Below, piece after piece: positions 52,585-64,000 of a stretch of 64,000 nucleotides of DNA. Made by a program: the position numbers and the translations under genes. How positions within the stretch are numbered: the first letter of the stretch is position 1; every line of letters begins with the position of its first letter. This stretch comes from Candidatus Thermokryptus mobilis (lineage in GTDB: Bacteria; Bacteroidota; Ignavibacteria; Kryptoniales; Kryptoniaceae): assembly GCF_900070205.1 (NCBI RefSeq), contig NZ_FAOO01000002.1:62001-126000 (forward strand), given 5' to 3'. A model generated the notes under the pieces. The model did no database searches, was not told the DNA's origin, and saw only the letters and a list, made by a program, of their open reading frames with translations.

Positions 52585-53120
52585 TTTCTTCTTGAACCAA
52601 TATTTCTTTTTCCTTCCTTGTTTTGTTCGCTTTCTTTATTCTGCTCTCGGGAGTTCCCATCCGATGAACGCAAATTGCCAAGACTTCTTGCCCCTTCGGA
52701 ATTCACCTCACTTCCCTTGCTAATTGAACCGGTTGACGATGATTTTGAAGAGGAATCCGAACCCGATGGTGTCCTTGAAGGCGGTGGCGAAAACGACTCG
52801 TTTGACGGTGTCCTATGTGTCCCAAACTCACGCACTCTTTCAAAAACCGAACCAGTTGAAGAACCAGTATCTGCTTCCATATTAACCCAAGAAAACCACC
52901 AAGGATAATTGTAATAAACCCAAGCCGATGCATCCTGAGATGGCATCAAGTCATAAAAATAATCAAGGTCAGCCCTTGAATGACAACCTGAACAATTGCT
53001 CCTATAACTCACATGTGAAGTATAAACCCCACCGGAGGAATCTTCATAATTCACCTCAGGATGTTTTATAATTGTATAACAGCCAGCGAAAATCAAAAGG
53101 ACGAAAATTAAATTTCTCAT
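52581..53120 (-). CDS. Small lipoprotein with one CxxCH motif and disordered tail
   Basis: 179 residues. Lipobox FAGC (Cys14), then a CxxCH haem-type motif (Cys43, Cys46, His47: CSGCH) and a 100-residue Ser/Pro/Arg-rich tail ending NIGSRRK. A single c-type haem is possible but unproven, as no axial ligand is clear. The tail resembles that of the neighbouring Trp/Tyr-rich lipoprotein. It overlaps that gene by 4 nt and the FadL-like gene by 4 nt. Confidence 0.7.
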   Translation of the reverse strand: MRNLIFVLLIFAGCYTIIKHPEVNYEDSSGGVYTSHVSYRSNCSGCHSRADLDYFYDLMPSQDASAWVYYNYPWWFSWVNMEADTGSSTGSVFERVREFGTHRTPSNESFSPPPSRTPSGSDSSSKSSSTGSISKGSEVNSEGARSLGNLRSSDGNSREQNKESEQNKEGKRNIGSRRK

Positions 53121-54070
53121 TTTCTTCTATTCCCTGTTTGTCTCCTCCCTTGCGTTACAGTATTATCACCTTGTCCGGAACTATTAGATGTTCCTGAATA
53201 ATGCGGTGTTAAACCGATCCGGGGCTGAAAGCCTCGGGAATCTTCAATCAACATACTTCTGCCAGTGTTATAATCTCTATACAATTGAATTTTTGAGGTC
53301 CTGTTAGAACCGCTTCTGCGTGGGGGCGTTGAATCATTTCTCGGTTTCTGTTCTTTATCCCCAGACCTTGGTTCAATTCTTGGCGCAGATGTCCCTCGTG
53401 ATGAACCTATATTTCTCGGTGATTCACTTCTTACACCACCCCTTTCAACCCCGGGTGTTTCTCTACCTGAAGACCCGGACGGTTTTCTCAAAGTTCCCTC
53501 AGTAGAACTTCCTTGAACATTGCCACCCGAATTTATTGCAGGCGCAGACCTCGTCGGCGGAGAGAAAGTTACACCTGTTTCATCACTATTTCTACTCTCA
53601 CCCGAACGCGTTGAGCCGAAGTTTCTCGTCCTATAAACGATCGCCTTGCCACCGGAGACAGGATAATACGGATTATTAATCACAATTATAATCGGAGCCC
53701 TATACCACCACGGGTAATAATACCATCCCGGGAAATAAAGATATGAATAGTATCTATCCCACCAATACCAATCCCACCACCAATATCTATCCCACCAAAA
53801 CGGGTCATAATACCACCACTCACCCCATCCAACGACGAACCCTGGCGTATAATACCTGAAGAAAAGGTAATATCTCGGATAAGGAAGGTAATAACGATAG
53901 GTGTAACCTTGATAATACCAAAAATTGTAATCGTCGGTGTAGTAGGAATAATTTTTCTCTTTTTTGCTCTCAAAACTCTGATAGCCCTCATCTTCCCTTA
54001 TAGTTCCGATCTGTGTATAACACCCCCAAAGGAAAAGCGTTGCAAGAGCGAGAAAAATTAATTTTTTCAT
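53117..54070 (-). CDS. Extremely Trp/Tyr-rich lipoprotein with Ser/Arg-rich tail
   Basis: 317 residues. Lipobox LWGC (Cys17), then about residues 40-135 in which over 40% are Trp or Tyr (runs such as WWYYDPFWW and DRYWWWDWYWW), a short hydrophobic IIIVINNPYY strand, and a 170-residue Gly/Ser/Arg-rich tail ending TGNRRK. I do not recognise a catalytic domain. The open frame is intact, with a strong GGAGGT ribosome site, so it is not an artefact. It could be a surface, matrix or electron-relay protein. Confidence 0.72.
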   Translation of the reverse strand: MKKLIFLALATLFLWGCYTQIGTIREDEGYQSFESKKEKNYSYYTDDYNFWYYQGYTYRYYLPYPRYYLFFRYYTPGFVVGWGEWWYYDPFWWDRYWWWDWYWWDRYYSYLYFPGWYYYPWWYRAPIIIVINNPYYPVSGGKAIVYRTRNFGSTRSGESRNSDETGVTFSPPTRSAPAINSGGNVQGSSTEGTLRKPSGSSGRETPGVERGGVRSESPRNIGSSRGTSAPRIEPRSGDKEQKPRNDSTPPRRSGSNRTSKIQLYRDYNTGRSMLIEDSRGFQPRIGLTPHYSGTSNSSGQGDNTVTQGRRQTGNRRK

Positions 54071-55851: not shown

Positions 55852-55956
55852 ATGGGGAAAGTTGAAAAATTAATCAATGAAATGGACAAGCTCTTGAGCA
55901 TTATAAATTCAAAAAATCCATCAAATGCTGGTATTGATCTGCCTTCTGACGATTAG
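55852..55956 (+). CDS. Possible 34-residue small protein before the GH114 gene
   Basis: An intact ATG-to-TAG frame reading MGKVEKLINEMDKLLSIINS followed by KNPSNAGIDLPSDD. The first half forms an amphipathic helix; codon use resembles the neighbours. It starts 11 nt after the AtuA-like stop and overlaps the start of the GH114 gene by 32 nt, matching the tight packing of this locus. It could instead be a chance frame in the leader. Confidence 0.45.
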   Translation: MGKVEKLINEMDKLLSIINSKNPSNAGIDLPSDD

Positions 55957-56698
55957 TTCAATATCTCAAGCTCAAAAAATTGATCACATAAAAAAGTATG
56001 CTGTCTGCTACGCAAAAATAACCCCTCAAGAAACGAGCGGTTTTGAGCTTTTAATACTTGACCCCGACATCTACACTAAAGATGAAATCCTTGACTTTAA
56101 AAAAAGAGGCGTTAAAACGATCGCCTACCTTAACATCGCAGAATTTGAAACATACCGAAAACCTGCTCTCCCAGAGTCAATAATTATCAGTAAAAATCCA
56201 CTATGGGAAGGACATTTTTATGTTGATATAAATTCACGAGCATGGGAGGATTACATCTTTTTTGATAGGATTCCGAAAATAATATCAAAGGAATTTGACG
56301 GCTTCTTCATTGACATGGTTGACATCGTGAGCATTTTCCCGAACTTTGAAGATAAAATCATTGATTACATAAAAAGAATAAAAATCCAAAACGATGACAA
56401 AATTTTGATCATAAACAACGGTTGGGTCTTGCTTGATACATTGAAAAGTTTCGCTGATGCTTTTTTAATTGAAGGGCTATTCACACGCTACGATTTCAAA
56501 ACAAAAAGATATTTCGTGCGATTTGAAAAGGAATACAAAGACAGAGTTGAAATCCTTAAGAAACTCGGTAAAAAAATTTTTACGCTTGATTTTCTCCCCG
56601 AGAATGACAAAAGAAAATACTTCGTCAAATCACTTTCGTTGAAATACGGGTTCACACCTTATATATCAACCATAGAACTAAACAAGATCTACAGATGA
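55925..56698 (+). CDS. Secreted GH114-family glycoside hydrolase (PelA-hydrolase-like)
   Basis: 257 residues with a signal peptide (MLVLICLLTISSISQAQ). The body is the endo-alpha-1,4-polygalactosaminidase fold (GH114, TM1410-like): YAVCYAKI near 25, ILDPDIYTKDEI near 45, AYLNIAEFE near 67 and the catalytic-strand DGFFIDMVD with Asp130. PelA of Pseudomonas carries the same hydrolase domain, fused to a deacetylase that is absent here. It stands before two PelF-like genes and likely trims the polymer in the periplasm. It overlaps the RsbW-like gene by 4 nt. Confidence 0.82.
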   Translation: MLVLICLLTISSISQAQKIDHIKKYAVCYAKITPQETSGFELLILDPDIYTKDEILDFKKRGVKTIAYLNIAEFETYRKPALPESIIISKNPLWEGHFYVDINSRAWEDYIFFDRIPKIISKEFDGFFIDMVDIVSIFPNFEDKIIDYIKRIKIQNDDKILIINNGWVLLDTLKSFADAFLIEGLFTRYDFKTKRYFVRFEKEYKDRVEILKKLGKKIFTLDFLPENDKRKYFVKSLSLKYGFTPYISTIELNKIYR

Positions 56699-57102
56699 AA
56701 TTTGAAATCAAAGACAGGGTCAGCGCAAATAAAATTTCAGAGATAAGATCAAAGCTGAAAAACTTTTTGCTTTCAAATGAAATTCCAGAAGAGACCGCCT
56801 CTGACATTGAACTTGTCATAAGCGAAATGCTGACAAATGTTTATAAGCACTCATATAAAGAGAAAGAAGGCGAGGTGATTGTAAAAGCATCAATTGACGG
56901 TGATGAATTAACTATTTCAATCAGGGACTTCGGAGAGAAATTTTCGCCAGCGGATATAAGAGAGCCAGACCCTGATTTCCTCGCCGACCATGGTTATGGG
57001 CTTTACATAGCAAGTCAAATAATGGACAAAATTGAATACATCCTGTCACATGAAACCGGGACCGAGGTAATTCTAAAAAAACTGCTTAAAAGTAATGGTT
57101 GA
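56695..57102 (+). CDS. RsbW-like anti-sigma/serine kinase ATPase domain protein
   Basis: 135 residues of the GHKL ATPase fold without HisKA: N-box ELVISEMLTNVYKHSY (Glu44, Asn48), D/G1-box RDFGEKFSP, G2-box HGYGLYIASQIMD near 99-111. RsbW/SpoIIAB proteins bind a sigma factor or phosphorylate an STAS partner on Ser/Thr. It lies between the GH114 and PelF-like genes, overlapping each (4 and 8 nt). Its natural opponent, an RsbU-like phosphatase, is encoded at 63181. Confidence 0.87.
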   Translation: MKFEIKDRVSANKISEIRSKLKNFLLSNEIPEETASDIELVISEMLTNVYKHSYKEKEGEVIVKASIDGDELTISIRDFGEKFSPADIREPDPDFLADHGYGLYIASQIMDKIEYILSHETGTEVILKKLLKSNG

Positions 57103-58300
57103 TGTCTGTCTTATACTTGAGGGAACATATCCTTACGTCGTTGGTGGCGTTTCAAAGTGGACACATGCATTGATAAAAAATTTAAGCCATTTGAAATTTT
57201 CAATCGTTCATCTTTATGAGGAAAGGAAAGAAACGATGAAATATCCAATCCCTGAAAATGTTGAATCAATTATTGAGATTGATGTAAAAAATGGTCTAGG
57301 TTTCAAATTTGATTTTAGAGATGTTCTTTACCTAATCCCTCGGGCGAAGGTTTATCATTGTCTATCAACTGGATTTGCTGGGGTTTTGGGGTTGCAGATA
57401 AAATCGGCACTAAAAAGACCGCTCATCGTAACTGAGCACGGGATTTATTGGAAAGAGCTTGAGTTTGGCGTTTACGAAGTTGAATGCGGATTTAAAATTT
57501 TCAAAAGCGAAAAAGAAAAAATGAATATTTGCATCGCACGAAGAGAATTTTTGCGAATATTCAAAGAGATCGCACTTAAATGTTATCTTAAAGCTGACCT
57601 CGTGACGACGGTTTGCAAATATAATCTTGAACAACAATTAAGTTTAATCCCTGCGCAAATGGTTGAAGATGTAAAGCATAAATTCAAAGTTATAGAAAAT
57701 TTCATTGAACCTGGATTTTTTAACCCAGGGGGGAGATCAACCAATGATGAAAAGGTTGTAACTTTCATCGGCAGAGTTGTCCCGATAAAAGATGTTAAGA
57801 CATTTATAAAAGCAATGCCTTTAATTTCACGGCGCTTTCCAAATGTTAAATTTCTAATTGTGGGCGATCTTACACAAGATAGCAGTTACTCATCAGAATG
57901 CATTGAACTCGCTGACTCGCTTGGGGTTTCAGATAAAGTTAAATTCATCGGTGAAGCAAGAGCGCTTGATTATTTAAAATCAACCGATATCCTCGTCCTG
58001 CCAAGTGTGAGTGAGGCTCAACCGTTTGTCATCCTTGAAGCCATTGCATCGGGAATCCCAGTTGTCGCAACATCGGTTGGGGGTATTCCAGAAATTCTGA
58101 ATGAAAGGGGTATTGAATGTGGTCTTTTGTTTGAGGCTGGAAATCATGGAAAACTCGCTGAACATGTAATCAAACTTTTAATAGATGAAAACCTGTGGAA
58201 AAAGTTTTCTGAAAATGCTATTAAAAAGGCACAGAAATTCACACTTGAAAATTTTATAAAAAGCTATTCCAAAATTTACAGCGAATTTATAAAGAGCTGA
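57095..58300 (+). CDS. PelF-like GT4 glycosyltransferase (copy 1)
   Basis: 401 residues. The N-terminal EGTYPYVVGGVSKW at 9-22 is the PelF hallmark. TEHGIYWKE near 115, FIGRVVPIKDVKTFI near 228 and the GT4 ExxxxxxxE motif in SEAQPFVILEAIASGIPVVATSVGG near 308 are also present. PelF uses UDP-sugars (UDP-GlcNAc/GalNAc in Pseudomonas) to build Pel. At about 400 residues it is shorter than most PelF (about 500). It overlaps the RsbW-like gene by 8 nt and the next copy starts 5 nt after its stop. Confidence 0.9.
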   Translation: MVDVCLILEGTYPYVVGGVSKWTHALIKNLSHLKFSIVHLYEERKETMKYPIPENVESIIEIDVKNGLGFKFDFRDVLYLIPRAKVYHCLSTGFAGVLGLQIKSALKRPLIVTEHGIYWKELEFGVYEVECGFKIFKSEKEKMNICIARREFLRIFKEIALKCYLKADLVTTVCKYNLEQQLSLIPAQMVEDVKHKFKVIENFIEPGFFNPGGRSTNDEKVVTFIGRVVPIKDVKTFIKAMPLISRRFPNVKFLIVGDLTQDSSYSSECIELADSLGVSDKVKFIGEARALDYLKSTDILVLPSVSEAQPFVILEAIASGIPVVATSVGGIPEILNERGIECGLLFEAGNHGKLAEHVIKLLIDENLWKKFSENAIKKAQKFTLENFIKSYSKIYSEFIKS

Positions 58301-58305
58301 CGAAA

Positions 58306-59841
58306 ATGGGCAAAAGACCGGCGGTTTTATTTGAAACAGAGGGGACATATCCATTCGTTGGGGGTGGAGTTAGCACCTGGGCTGATATACTTGTGAATAA
58401 TCTTCCAGAGTTTGATTTCTACATTTACGCTATCACTGGATTGCCGTATGTTGAATTCAAATATAAATTGCCGAAAAATGTAAAACTTGTCAGACAAATA
58501 CCGCTTTGGGGTTCGGAGGAACCGTTTGAGGACATCTTCTTTGAGGTTCCGTTTTCAAGCATTTATATGAGAAAAACCAAGGTAAATGAAAGAGCAGTTT
58601 TGAGAAAGTTCATCCCAATTTTCATTGAATTTTTGTCCTCATTGATGGACCCATTTTCAAACCCTGAGGATACAGCCGGGTATATATGGCTTATGCATAG
58701 ATATTTCAGCGAGTATGATTACAAAGAGACCTTTAGAAGTTTTACACTTTGGCAAGAATTCAAACGCTTCGTGATTTTGAAATATATTGAGGATAATCAA
58801 TTTCTTCACGAGGATGAGATGCCATCAGTATATGATTTAACGCTTGCCATGCGTTGGCTCTATCATTATTTGATGCCACTTTATGTTGATGTCCCTGAAG
58901 TAGATTTAAGCCATGCAACAGCTGCGGGGTTTTGCGGGATTCCAAGCGTAGTTGCAAAGATGCGCGATGGCACACCGTTGATAGTCACGGATCACGGCGT
59001 CTTCGCAAGAGAAAGATACATAGGGATCGGCAGTGAAAAAAGTTTGAGTTTCTTTGCGAAAAAATTTCTCATAAACCTTTCAATACTTGTCAGCAAAATG
59101 CTTTACAAACTTGCGGATAAAGTTTTGCCGGTGTGTAGATTCAACACGGTTTGGGAAAGAATCTTCGGCGTTGAAGAGGAAAAGATAAAAGTGATATACA
59201 ATGGGGTTGATCCGGAGGTCTTTAAGCCGAAGCCAAAACCCCAGAAAAATCAAGGGATACCAACGGTCGTAGCAGCTGCACGGATAATGCCACTTAAAGA
59301 CATTGAAACGATGATAAAATCGTGTGCAATCGTAAGGGAGGAAATCCCAAATGTTAAGTTTATCGTCTACGGCTCGCTTGATGTTGATCCACTTTATACA
59401 AGGAAATGTCAGCTTTTGATAAAACAATTAAAGCTTGAAGATAACTTCATACTTGCGGGACATCATCCAAATCCGAGCGAAATTTACAACGAAGGGGATA
59501 TTTCAGTTTTATCAAGTATTTCAGAAGGTTTCCCATATACAGTCATTGAGTCAATGGCATGCGCAAGACCTGTAGTTGCGACAGATGTTGGGGGTGTTAG
59601 AGAAGCCCTTGAAGGATTTGGAATAATTGTGAGACCCAGGGACCCAAAAGCCCTTGCTGAAGGGATAATAAAACTTCTAACTGACCACGAACTTCGCGAA
59701 ACCCTCGGAAGAAGAGCAAGGGAGGAGGTCCTCGCAAAATACAGGATAAATTCAACGATTGAGGAATACAAAAAATCCTATTTTGAGGCAATCCAAAAAT
59801 TAAAAGTAGATGAAAGGGAAGAACTTTCCGTCAAATACTGA
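58306..59841 (+). CDS. pelF: PelF-like GT4 glycosyltransferase (copy 2)
   Basis: 511 residues, full PelF length. ETEGTYPFVGGGVSTW at 10-25, a PelF-typical insertion rich in aromatic residues (about 95-190; HRYFSEYDYKETFRSF), TDHGVFARERYIG near 227, ARIMPLKDIETMI near 325 and the GT4 motif SEGFPYTVIESMACARPVVATDVGG near 405. This is closer to canonical PelF than the copy before it. Its last 32 nt overlap the pelG-like gene, implying coupled synthesis, as in other pel operons. Confidence 0.93.
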   Translation: MGKRPAVLFETEGTYPFVGGGVSTWADILVNNLPEFDFYIYAITGLPYVEFKYKLPKNVKLVRQIPLWGSEEPFEDIFFEVPFSSIYMRKTKVNERAVLRKFIPIFIEFLSSLMDPFSNPEDTAGYIWLMHRYFSEYDYKETFRSFTLWQEFKRFVILKYIEDNQFLHEDEMPSVYDLTLAMRWLYHYLMPLYVDVPEVDLSHATAAGFCGIPSVVAKMRDGTPLIVTDHGVFARERYIGIGSEKSLSFFAKKFLINLSILVSKMLYKLADKVLPVCRFNTVWERIFGVEEEKIKVIYNGVDPEVFKPKPKPQKNQGIPTVVAAARIMPLKDIETMIKSCAIVREEIPNVKFIVYGSLDVDPLYTRKCQLLIKQLKLEDNFILAGHHPNPSEIYNEGDISVLSSISEGFPYTVIESMACARPVVATDVGGVREALEGFGIIVRPRDPKALAEGIIKLLTDHELRETLGRRAREEVLAKYRINSTIEEYKKSYFEAIQKLKVDEREELSVKY

Positions 59842-61432
59842 AATTGAAAGATTAAAGAAAATTGAAAAGGTCGCTGATGAAGTAATTGAGAAAATTGGCA
59901 ATCCAGTAAGCCCACTTCAAGTTTCCGCCGTGATTGAAAGCCTAGGATATAGACACGCAGATTGCCCAACCGAATTTGGGAAAAAGAACATTTTTGAGTT
60001 AAGTAAGGATGTGTATAAAATTTGCAAGCTGAAAGTAAGAAGGGGAAAAGCCAAGAAAGGGAAAACAAAACAACTTGGCTTTCTTCATTCATTCTGGATT
60101 TTTATAAGATATTTTTCTGGTGGAATTGCACTTGGACTCCCTATAGCAAGTCAAATCGCCTTTATCGCCTTCACTGGTTATTCTCTATGGGCGTGGATTA
60201 AATTCACTGAACTTCAAGCAACGATTGTTGCTCTGGGAACGATTTTAAGTTTTATCGTCACCGGTGGATTTACACAAGTTATAGGAAGAGAAGTGACATA
60301 TTACTTAAGCATAGGAAACAAAATAACAGCAAGGGCAATCGCATTTAAACTTTTCAACTACGGGTTTGCAACATCCATCGCCTTTGGCTTTTTACTTTTC
60401 ATCTTAAATTTAGTTTTTGAAATCTTCCCCAAAAAATTTCTTTTAATAGCCCTCGTTTACTATTTTCTGCTCTCAATCCTTTGGCTTTCAACAAGCTTGA
60501 TTTATTCGGCGAAAAGAAAACTTGCGGTATTCACAATTCTTTCAATAGGAACACTCGTTGTGATCTGGCTTCACAAGTTCAATTCCCTCAACATACATAT
60601 CGCGCATATAATTGGTTTGACGACTTCGGATGTCTTAATGACGCTATGGGCAAGGTTTATTTTTAGATTAAAAAAAGGCGAAAAGAAAATCACCTATGTC
60701 TCATTAAAAGTTAAAAGGCGTTCTGTTTTAGCTTATGTCAATAGCCCGTTCTTCAAATTTGGGCTTTATTATTTCCTGCTACTTTTCCTTGACAGGTTGA
60801 TCTCGTGGAGTGCCCCCTCAAAGGGGAAATTTTATCTCTTTTGGTTCAGAACTCCTTATGAGCTTGGGGTGGATTGGGCGTTACTTTCCTTCGGGCTAAT
60901 GCTAGCCATGCTTGAATATACGGTTAATGATTTCTCAGAAAAACTCATTCCAACGCAAAAGAAATTTCCCGCGTTTGAGATAAAATCTCATAATGCTTGG
61001 TATCTTAACTTTTACCTTGTTAAATTTTCACTTCTTGTTATTTTCGGGCTTGCAAGTATAATAGCGGTATATTTAATCGTGATGAAACTCGGTGAGGTGT
61101 ATCAGCACATAAAAGAAGTAAGGGAATTCTTTTCAAGCCCGATTACATTTAAGGTTTTTTACTTGGCTTCAATTTCATATTTATTTCTCGCTATCGGATT
61201 ATTGAATAATCTTTTCTTCTTCACCCTTTGGAAACCCGAATTTGGACTTAAAGCGATAAGAAGCGCTCTCCTCGTTGACCTTGTAGTTGGATTGATCTCA
61301 AGCAGATTGATAAGTTGGGAATACGGAGTGCTCGGCTTTACACTTGGTTCACTTGTGTTCGCAATTACTACAACTTGGCATATGCTGAAATTTTTAAAAA
61401 CGATAGATTACCAATACTATTCCGCTTTTTGA
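59810..61432 (+). CDS. pelG: PelG-like polysaccharide transport membrane protein
   Basis: 540 residues. A cytosolic N-terminal part of about 85 residues is followed by about 12 membrane helices. RYFSGGIALGLPIASQIAFIAFTGYS, the PYELGVDWALLSF loop near 350 and the closing YQYYSAF agree with PelG, the MATE-like (polysaccharide flippase superfamily) protein that moves Pel across the inner membrane. The N-terminal extension has a helical segment seen in few PelG proteins I know, so its origin is unclear. Confidence 0.85.
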   Translation: MKGKNFPSNTEIERLKKIEKVADEVIEKIGNPVSPLQVSAVIESLGYRHADCPTEFGKKNIFELSKDVYKICKLKVRRGKAKKGKTKQLGFLHSFWIFIRYFSGGIALGLPIASQIAFIAFTGYSLWAWIKFTELQATIVALGTILSFIVTGGFTQVIGREVTYYLSIGNKITARAIAFKLFNYGFATSIAFGFLLFILNLVFEIFPKKFLLIALVYYFLLSILWLSTSLIYSAKRKLAVFTILSIGTLVVIWLHKFNSLNIHIAHIIGLTTSDVLMTLWARFIFRLKKGEKKITYVSLKVKRRSVLAYVNSPFFKFGLYYFLLLFLDRLISWSAPSKGKFYLFWFRTPYELGVDWALLSFGLMLAMLEYTVNDFSEKLIPTQKKFPAFEIKSHNAWYLNFYLVKFSLLVIFGLASIIAVYLIVMKLGEVYQHIKEVREFFSSPITFKVFYLASISYLFLAIGLLNNLFFFTLWKPEFGLKAIRSALLVDLVVGLISSRLISWEYGVLGFTLGSLVFAITTTWHMLKFLKTIDYQYYSAF

Positions 61433-61433
61433 G

Positions 61434-63188
61434 ATGTTTGAAAAAGTTCTCTACATATTAAAACTTCATCTCGGCATAGCTTTAATCTCGTTTATCTTAT
61501 GGAAATTAAGGTTTTGGAGCGAGTGTGATAAGCGGATTTGTTTTTGGAGACATTTCTATTTGTTCTTTACAATTTTGCTGTTCGCATCATCGGTTACGAT
61601 CGCTTTAAAATCGTTTGACATAATTTTCATAATCTTTCTCATCTTTCTTTTCATCTCGTTTGATTTCTTCGTCGCGAAAAGAGGCAAAAAAATTGAGATT
61701 TTTAAAATAACTTTGAATCAAAAAATTTACGACTTGCTTGACGGAAACATCACCTTAAAAGTGAAACTTTTCAAAACGAAACCAAACATAACAAATATCA
61801 TCGCGATCTTCATCATATATGTGCTTGGGTTATTTATGTGGGTAAAGCCAGCGCTTGAAAACGCTTCATTTTTCAATCTCCACCAATATAATCTCCTTGT
61901 CAAAACAACATCAATTTTAACAAACAGCTCTAACTTAACAATTGCAAATCTTGGGATATGTTCACTTTCCGCTTTTTTTGCCTCAATTTTCAATGTAAAC
62001 CAACATCAAGTGATTCACTTATTCGGTGCGTTTAACTTCATGCTGTTATTTTCCGGGGTTTCCATCTTAACATTTAGGTTGACCAATGACTTAAAATCAG
62101 TGATTTTGAGCGGTTCAATTATAGCGTTTGTCTTCCCACATCTTAATTTAGTTTCAAACCCCGTTGAAGGAAGTTCCTTTTTACTTGGGATTTCATGGGC
62201 TCTTTTCACCTTATACTTCTGGAAGGATGAAAACCTAAACTTTACCTTCAAACTCGCTGGAATATTGAGCGTATTTTTGATTGACATATTCATCGGATTT
62301 ATTTTAAGCATCTTGATCTTAACGGGAGAAACTTTTGAAACTTGGAAAAAAGAGAAAAGTTCTCGTTTGATCTTTACTGCTCCTTTAATTTTCCTCTCAC
62401 TTCTTGTTTTTGAGTTTTATATTTTCCGCCATGACCCCAAACTTATGACCCTCGCTTACGCTTTGCTCTACAATCAAGAGATATCCAGCGTTGTATCCCG
62501 AGACATTGGGATATTTTTAATTCTCATCTCACTCCTTGGCTCCGTCATTGGAATTTTCTCCGGGTTGATGTTTTACAGCGTATTAACTTTTACCCTGGTA
62601 ATATTGATTTCTCTCTGCGAGCTTTCAATTTTAAGCTTCATACCATACGAGCAATTCTACCCGCTTGTGTTTGTTCTCTCAACCCTTTGGCTTTCCTTTT
62701 TGATTTCAAAAATTTTAAATCATAGAAAATTTTTGCGCGATGTTATAACTTTACTTACGGCTCTTCTTGTCACGCTCAATGGTCTTCTTGCTGGTTCTGT
62801 GAAACTTGATACACCAATTGAACCCGACGAATTCGTCGTCCTTGTTGATAAAATCAGTAAAGATAACCTGCCGTTTTCATTCGCTATCGTCTCCCATCGT
62901 GGGACAAAGGCAATGGTGGAAAACTTATCATGGTTTATGGATTGGGAATATTTTGCAAAAAATTATATTTTTATAGATGATGTCAAAAAAATTTACGATG
63001 TGGTTTACATACTCGTTCCAGAGAAAGAAGCAATTGACAAGATAAACAAAGCATTTTTACCGCCAATTGAAAATTTACCCGAAGTTCTTGACTCAATTTG
63101 TGTAAACTACAAATACGCAAGGGCACAGGTATATTTTAAAGGCAGATATGTGAAAGCTTATAAACTAACGAAGTTGAGAAATGATTGA
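61434..63188 (+). CDS. Large polytopic membrane protein of the Pel-like locus
   Basis: 584 residues: about a dozen hydrophobic helices (residues 10-480), then a soluble C-terminal domain of about 110 residues (FVVLVDKISKDNLPFSFAIV and IYDVVYILVPEK). The shape fits a polymerase or GT39/Wzy-like protein or a positional replacement of PelE/PelD, but I found no diagnostic motif. ATG is 1 nt after the pelG-like stop. It ends 8 nt into the phosphatase gene. Confidence 0.75.
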   Translation: MFEKVLYILKLHLGIALISFILWKLRFWSECDKRICFWRHFYLFFTILLFASSVTIALKSFDIIFIIFLIFLFISFDFFVAKRGKKIEIFKITLNQKIYDLLDGNITLKVKLFKTKPNITNIIAIFIIYVLGLFMWVKPALENASFFNLHQYNLLVKTTSILTNSSNLTIANLGICSLSAFFASIFNVNQHQVIHLFGAFNFMLLFSGVSILTFRLTNDLKSVILSGSIIAFVFPHLNLVSNPVEGSSFLLGISWALFTLYFWKDENLNFTFKLAGILSVFLIDIFIGFILSILILTGETFETWKKEKSSRLIFTAPLIFLSLLVFEFYIFRHDPKLMTLAYALLYNQEISSVVSRDIGIFLILISLLGSVIGIFSGLMFYSVLTFTLVILISLCELSILSFIPYEQFYPLVFVLSTLWLSFLISKILNHRKFLRDVITLLTALLVTLNGLLAGSVKLDTPIEPDEFVVLVDKISKDNLPFSFAIVSHRGTKAMVENLSWFMDWEYFAKNYIFIDDVKKIYDVVYILVPEKEAIDKINKAFLPPIENLPEVLDSICVNYKYARAQVYFKGRYVKAYKLTKLRND

Positions 63189-64000
63189 ACGTCTTATAAA
63201 AATATACACCGAGAAATTCTCAAAGTTTTCACGAGCCAGGTTTGCTGTATTTGATAGGAACGGAAGGTTAATAGCGAAGACAGGTGAGTTTGAGGATTTT
63301 GAGAATGGGATAAAGGTTGATCTTATGTCAAGTTATGGTGAGATGTTTCTCTATGTCAAGCCATCGGAAAACGCAGAAATGGAGATTGAGCTTTTGAAAT
63401 TTTTATACACTGAGCTTTTAAACTACGAGGGTTATATAGAGCAACTCGTCAAGGAGCTTGCAAACAGACAAGAGGAGCTCAGCATCGTTTATGATATTAT
63501 AGCAAGGGCAAGTTTGGTATTTGATGAGGCTGAGATAGCGAAAATAGTTATGGGTAAAATCAACTCAATGCTATCACCAAAGGCATGCATAATTGGAATT
63601 TTTGAGGGGGATACTTTAAATCAAAAGTATGCAAGCGGTGTGATTAACGGGGATATGAAGTTTGAAGCTGAAAAATTGATTGATAGAGCAATTAAGCAGA
63701 GAAATTTTATAATTTTGTCCAGGAAAATGGCTGTCCCGATGCTTTCCGGGGAAAAACCTATAGGTGGAATTTTTGTCTATAGCGATAAAACTGAATTTGA
63801 CACAACGGATGCAAAACTACTTTTAACGCTTGGGAACTATGCTGGTATTATACTTTATAGGAACCAACTTATTGAGGAGATAAAGAGGGCTGAAGTTGTA
63901 AGACACGAGATTGAGCTCGCAAAAAGGATTCAAGAAAATTTGCTCCCCAAGTTCATACCAAGATTTGAAGGTCTTGATATATTTGCACTTATAAAGCCAA
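63181..64000 (+). CDS. GAF-domain RsbU/SpoIIE-like phosphatase, 3' part outside window
   Basis: 273 codons visible; the gene runs off the right edge. A first short domain (1-90), a coiled linker (about 85-115), a GAF-like domain (about 110-240; PKACIIGIFEG, MAVPMLSGEKPIGGIFVY), then the start of a PP2C-type phosphatase: ELAKRIQENLLPKFIP, the linker seen before RsbU/SpoIIE catalytic domains. These dephosphorylate STAS anti-sigma antagonists. Overlap by 8 nt ties it to the Pel-like operon. The catalytic Asp/Gly motifs lie beyond the window, so activity is inferred. Confidence 0.82.
   Translation, partial: MIERLIKIYTEKFSKFSRARFAVFDRNGRLIAKTGEFEDFENGIKVDLMSSYGEMFLYVKPSENAEMEIELLKFLYTELLNYEGYIEQLVKELANRQEELSIVYDIIARASLVFDEAEIAKIVMGKINSMLSPKACIIGIFEGDTLNQKYASGVINGDMKFEAEKLIDRAIKQRNFIILSRKMAVPMLSGEKPIGGIFVYSDKTEFDTTDAKLLLTLGNYAGIILYRNQLIEEIKRAEVVRHEIELAKRIQENLLPKFIPRFEGLDIFALIKP

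Follow-up and report, generated by a model that had tools for sequence, protein, structure and literature searches.

The Pel system of Pseudomonas aeruginosa (pelABCDEFG) includes PelD, a receptor for cyclic diguanylate (c-di-GMP; PMC2170427). The Gram-positive pelDEADAFG systems combine a separate hydrolase with a DUF2194-type de-N-acetylase (PelADA), PelF and PelG; their PelD works with c-di-GMP in Bacillus cereus and has lost its GGDEF domain in streptococci (PMC7112168, PMC13254593). No partner switch has been described in the B. cereus or streptococcal systems. Switches of this kind are built into other polysaccharide loci, of which two are the nearest analogues of the locus reported here. 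The syp exopolysaccharide locus of Vibrio fischeri, which is not described as Pel, has a serine kinase/serine phosphatase/STAS switch with a receiver-containing phosphorelay as its input (PMC4517449). In Nostoc, a separate phosphatase, STAS protein and RsbW-type kinase (HmpU/HmpV/HmpW) are tied to hormogonium motility and polysaccharide, and belong to the hmp locus rather than to a Pel synthesis cluster (PMC8256260). Here we analyse a gene cluster at the end of a 64,000-nucleotide stretch of the genome of Candidatus Thermokryptus mobilis that joins these two known kinds of system. Its existence and conservation are confirmed, and the literature searched holds no description of it. We read it, at a probability of about 0.5, as a Pel-family system whose control probably does not involve c-di-GMP and which has a phosphorelay and partner switch of its own, a GAF-HD protein standing in the place of PelD.

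The window (the whole stretch, at its full length) covers positions 62001-126000 of contig C2 (G000:C2) in a 2.42-Mb, 35-contig genome. Past its end we use the numbering of locus L002, where window coordinate = L002 coordinate + 55000. The cluster extends beyond position 64000 to about 69759 (window-equivalent) and comprises 11 same-strand, mostly overlapping genes, from the GH114 hydrolase to the UbiA-fold protein in the order below; an open reading frame (ORF) of 34 amino acids (aa) precedes it and a convergent kinase gene lies at its far end.

55852..55956, plus strand: short ORF, 34 aa, directly 5' of GH114; no Pfam match
55925..56698, plus strand: GH114 glycoside hydrolase of PelA-hydrolase type, signal peptide-like N-terminus; PF03537 59 bits, PelA 9cgy E=1.1e-11
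56695..57102, plus strand: RsbW-like serine kinase/anti-sigma-type HATPase; HATPase_c_2 PF13581 87 bits, RsbW 6m36 E=1.8e-8, SE..TN box kept
57095..58300, plus strand: PelF1, short PelF-family GT4 glycosyltransferase, 401 aa; NF038011 265 bits
58306..59841, plus strand: PelF2, full-length PelF-family GT4 glycosyltransferase, 511 aa; NF038011 170 bits
59810..61432, plus strand: PelG-like polytopic exporter, 540 aa; PF16933 11.5 bits (homologue in L064, 29.9)
61434..63188, plus strand: GT-C-fold polytopic membrane protein, 584 aa, by structure model and Foldseek; kept in related clusters
63181 to window-equivalent 64623 (L002:9623), plus strand: RsbU-like GAF + SpoIIE/PP2C phosphatase, 480 aa; PF07228 162 bits, 3es2 E=5.5e-17
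L002:9631-10002, plus strand: REC protein, CheY-like
L002:9999-12050, plus strand: GAF-HD-STAS protein, 683 aa
L002:12007-13872 (first ATG 12031), plus strand: DUF2194/PelADA protein
L002:13869-14759, plus strand: UbiA-fold protein
L002:14738-16837, minus strand: hybrid histidine kinase, convergent, at the far end of the cluster

The overlaps given in a first-pass annotation of this DNA were found where it had placed them: 4 nt (GH114/RsbW), 8 nt (RsbW/PelF1), 32 nt (PelF2/PelG-like) and 8 nt (polytopic protein/phosphatase), with gaps of 5 nt at PelF1/PelF2 and 1 nt at PelG-like/polytopic. The same annotation named the GH114 family correctly and began the gene at 55852, which is the start of the 34-aa ORF; the hydrolase itself starts at 55925. 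The short ORF matches no family and was rejected as an intact gene of the system. A promoter and terminator scan gave a signal no better than that of shuffled sequences.

Both PelF proteins exceed the NCBIfam cut-off (NF038011, 265 and 170 vs 100 bits), as had been supposed. The PelG-like protein, itself below the Pfam cut-off of 29 bits (PF16933), has a full-length homologue in the related genome G286 that reaches 29.9 bits over nearly the full PelG profile. A search of the PDB with the PelG profile gave no match. Since the GH114 protein matches PelA and the DUF2194 protein matches PelADA, the hydrolase and de-N-acetylase functions of PelA are both encoded, as two genes. The DUF2194 match is to PDB 9ZAU (E=1e-50), the B. 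cereus PelADA and founding member of CE26, whose named residues are D262/D263, HxxxH, P405, R458 and H488/D491 (PMC13254593); aligned with it, our protein has all the corresponding motifs (IDDFP, HGYNH, PP, PR and HPDD). The locus resembles the P. aeruginosa operon in its PelF, PelG-like protein, GH114 hydrolase and de-N-acetylase, and differs in the split PelA, the two PelFs, the added GT-C and UbiA-fold proteins, the RsbW/RsbU/STAS switch and the lack of any PelD that we could find. The polytopic 584-aa protein was modelled with AlphaFold2 from 21 homologues (predicted local distance difference test 78.6; predicted template modelling score 0.77), and Foldseek matched the model to OST/STT3 (8age, E=5.2e-5) and also to DPY19, PglB and ArnT, at template modelling scores of about 0.4. 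The model indicates a GT-C transferase fold, a likeness at fold level only.

A putative outer-membrane component is encoded elsewhere in the genome. On another contig lies a 555-aa protein with tetratricopeptide repeats (TPR) and a barrel, with an orthologue in 7/7 congeners, that matches the C-terminal part of a DUF2194-TPR-barrel fusion (E=1.4e-24). Such fusions occur in sister clusters, where DUF2194 is extended by TPR repeats and a putative barrel, clearly so in G286 and G510; the match of this barrel to that of PgaA is weak (E=0.006), and the Kryptonia DUF2194 has no such extension. DUF2194-TPR-putative outer-membrane barrel genes were seen at L086:4905-8933, at L063:342-4268 and at L081:17332-19998 plus L088:1-1827, and judged from their domain order they are putative natural fusions of a PelA deacetylase with a PelB-like protein.

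It is possible, if doubtful, that the product is a polymer other than Pel, which is partially deacetylated alpha-1,4-GalNAc; it might for instance be another kind of N-acetylhexosamine polymer, or a capsule. This would be compatible with partner-switch control. Two PelFs and GT-C- and UbiA-fold proteins are foreign to canonical pel operons, and the PelG-like protein is divergent. However, the GH114, PelADA-type deacetylase, PelF and PelG-like genes match the Gram-positive pelDEADAFG set with its separate hydrolase (PMC7112168), and the G510 cluster holds a gene for an NAD-dependent sugar epimerase, which fits a UDP-GalNAc precursor.

The RsbW/STAS/RsbU trio is complete in one operon, and alignments place the key residues in all three. 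The RsbW-like ATPase that the first-pass annotation had seen next to PelF keeps the N-box Glu/Asn in its SE..TN box. Reading past 64000, as that annotation had advised, supplied the missing parts: the SpoIIE/PP2C domain of the phosphatase is intact, with GGD, DVSGHG, FTDG and DD motifs that vary little or not at all, and a STAS domain ends the GAF-HD protein. A phosphatase without its catalytic domain was accordingly rejected. The STAS motif DSSG is invariant in Kryptonia and reads DSSC in G286 and G510, where the Ser is kept; the PP2C and STAS catalytic motifs are kept both in the genus and in these two genomes. On the input side, five congeners have an HPt-like gene (~96-116 aa) directly 5' of GH114, for example at L013:14797-15087, L015:17951-18250, L017:11173-11472 and L016:452-802, with Hpt PF01627 scores of 42-50 bits in the four congeners scanned. 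The window species has no HPt gene there, and the 34-aa ORF in its place could be a remnant of one. In G510, one 432-aa ORF, uninterrupted by any stop codon, spans both GH114 and RsbW (L081:4730-6028), with a GTG near the junction as a possible internal start; a fusion of a secreted hydrolase with a cytoplasmic kinase would be odd and may be an assembly error.

The first-pass annotation had staked its proposal, a partner switch replacing PelD, on three points that we examined: conservation of the neighbours, residues of the phosphatase and a PelD-like receptor directly downstream. The last is absent, the phosphatase being followed by the REC protein and then the GAF-HD-STAS protein, and the neighbours are conserved. 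Nor does Pfam PelD_GGDEF, the profile for the receptor that combines transmembrane, GAF and degenerate GGDEF parts, match any protein of the cluster. By tblastn of the cluster proteins against six congeners, gene order is identical in all as far as contigs reach (the G001 and G006 clusters are interrupted by contig ends), giving the same order beside pelF and pelG in 7/7 congeneric species, and two further families of the class have the switch genes at these positions. Chance insertion of RsbW was rejected, since in nine genomes, as far as their contigs extend, the gene sits at one and the same position in the cluster. Gene content, key residues and synteny are in this respect firm at the level of sequence.

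PelG profile searches matched 27/396 genomes phylum-wide and 13/391 class-wide, and the loci read fall into three architectures. Partner-switch clusters (Kryptonia, G286 of family f17 and G510 of f4) comprise GH114, RsbW, PelF1, PelF2, PelG, GT-C-like, RsbU, REC, GAF-HD, STAS and DUF2194, with STAS as a free gene right after GAF-HD in G286 (115 aa) and G510 (112 aa). Two-component clusters (Bacteroidota families f37 and f26) share PelF1-PelF2-PelG-GAFHD-GH114-(GT-C-like)-DUF2194, but histidine kinase-REC and/or REC genes before PelF1 replace the switch, no RsbW, RsbU or STAS being seen in these loci, and DUF2194 has a long C-terminal extension resembling TPR plus barrel. Minimal clusters (f35, f42) have only PelF2, PelG, GH114, GT-C-like and DUF2194. 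A PelG tree made without two long f22 rows places the partner-switch clusters on one branch (100/99), which recurs with weaker support in the PelF2 tree (87/80); with the f22 rows the grouping is lost, and the program warned of long branches meeting. Searches of the orders of G510 and G286 added no loci, the cluster being present in only 2/98 genomes. PelF1 had no relatives in viral contigs, and a PelF2 scan of genome contigs returned mostly Kryptonia records. In G404, additional disrupted fragments of PelF2 and PelG lie beside an intact cluster (L055:15418-17089).

None of the loci read has GAF-HD without PelF1 or the reverse: both are present in f1, f4, f17, f26 and f37, and both are missing in f35, f42 and f22. 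This probably puts GAF-HD on the synthase side, with an exchangeable input module. Sister clusters without the switch still have the GAF-HD protein, which makes it a likelier stand-in for PelD than the switch itself; with this correction the first-pass proposal, that the switch may gate synthesis or export of the polymer, is supported.

The chief alternative is a classical anti-sigma module, in which RsbW holds a sigma factor until the STAS, once dephosphorylated, releases it for transcription of the pel-like operon and of other genes. By similarity RsbW and STAS come nearest to anti-sigma and anti-anti-sigma proteins, and the genome has two sigma factors with regions 2-4 (FliA-like and RpoD-like). 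Yet the loci read show no sigma gene within or next to the cluster; nothing of SigB/F/G type in the genus scores above its cut-off, the matches there being an RpoD-like sigma and a FliA encoded in a flagellar operon; and the STAS of Kryptonia is part of the GAF-HD protein. We think a sigma-factor output unlikely.

The HD domain is homologous to HD-GYP (5z7c, E=2e-25; 4mcw, E=4e-19) and keeps H348, H380, D381, H400 and H424. The HDxGK lysine is lost in all loci aligned; in Kryptonia the motifs read HDVGM, HQ and GFP, with Q in place of the second HH histidine and F in GYP, and E replaces a metal-ligand D (vs 4mcw). Because that lysine is lost everywhere, and Kryptonia also lack the second HH His and the GYP Tyr, its motifs make the protein unlikely to be an ordinary c-di-GMP phosphodiesterase. 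That it is an active phosphodiesterase for c-di-GMP or another cyclic dinucleotide, lowering the signal locally while STAS/RsbW tunes its activity, agrees with the HD-GYP homology and with the HH and GYP motifs kept in G286 and G510, but is quite improbable given these substitutions and the lack of an intact GGDEF protein in the genus and in most sister-cluster genomes tested. The only GGDEF-family protein of the genus, found in 5/7 genomes and conserved there, has KLDENLIG or similar at the GGDEF site (KLDENLIG in the window species, L101:8449-10170, G000:C8). Among ten genomes with related clusters, seven have no GGDEF protein, G286 and G510 have one each and G069 has six; four f37 genomes carrying the sister cluster have none. 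Between HD and STAS, residues ~512-555 (L002:9999-12050) include seven cysteines, invariant in Kryptonia and missing in G286 and G510, possibly a metal or Fe-S site.

In the mechanism that we propose for a Pel-family system with its own partner switch, a sensor kinase would phosphorylate the receiver, via HPt in congeners that have it, and the state of the receiver would set RsbU activity. RsbW would add, and RsbU remove, a phosphate on the STAS serine (DSSG). The STAS state, fused to or beside GAF-HD, could then alter how GAF-HD or RsbW engages the PelF/PelG complex, and synthesis would be turned on or off through STAS, GAF-HD and PelF/PelG, with GAF-HD taking the place of PelD. We propose this route because STAS is joined to GAF-HD in Kryptonia and GAF-HD is probably on the synthase side. 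The kinase-HPt-receiver-RsbU/RsbW/STAS chain, as we infer it, resembles the V. fischeri chain to SypE and SypA (PMC4517449); there SypE is one protein with receiver, kinase and phosphatase outputs and SypA a free-standing STAS (PMC4517449), whereas here the functions lie in separate genes. Somewhat short of even odds, and held tentatively, is the more specific claim that c-di-GMP has been lost entirely from this Pel branch, with PelD replaced by a diverged HD-GYP protein and synthesis switched post-translationally by RsbW/RsbU through serine phosphorylation of an attached or adjacent STAS.

Several points weigh against reading the locus as a Pel-family system with its own partner switch. The PelG-like protein of the window species scores below the Pfam cut-off (11.5 vs 29 bits), and the PelB-like protein is not linked to the cluster. 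PelC and PelE, part of the P. aeruginosa set, are absent from Pfam scans of the cluster proteins, although no search was aimed at either. A genus-wide search with Pfam PelD_GGDEF was empty, which is weak evidence as the controls were silent too. Sigma factors, to which RsbW could bind instead, occur in all the Kryptonium genomes searched, and co-location of switch and enzymes is no proof of gating.

Elsewhere in the window, 53117-54070 encodes a predicted secreted protein whose first half is extremely rich in Trp and Tyr.

The Kryptonia are known from neutral high-temperature springs (PMC4737851). Our literature search found no paper on a Kryptonia Pel locus and none uniting pelF, pelG and partner switching. 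Pel is the classic example of a polymer machine on which c-di-GMP acts, by way of PelD. If our reading is true, a receptor-less branch that encodes a kinase, a phosphatase and a STAS in the operon itself would be evidence that one and the same synthase can come under a different signalling chemistry. What STAS proteins act on in polysaccharide loci, as with V. fischeri SypA, has long been a question (PMC4517449), and the natural fusion of STAS to GAF-HD, kept alongside PelF1, offers a concrete candidate target. In Kryptonia, a biofilm machine may thus be under an undescribed form of control.

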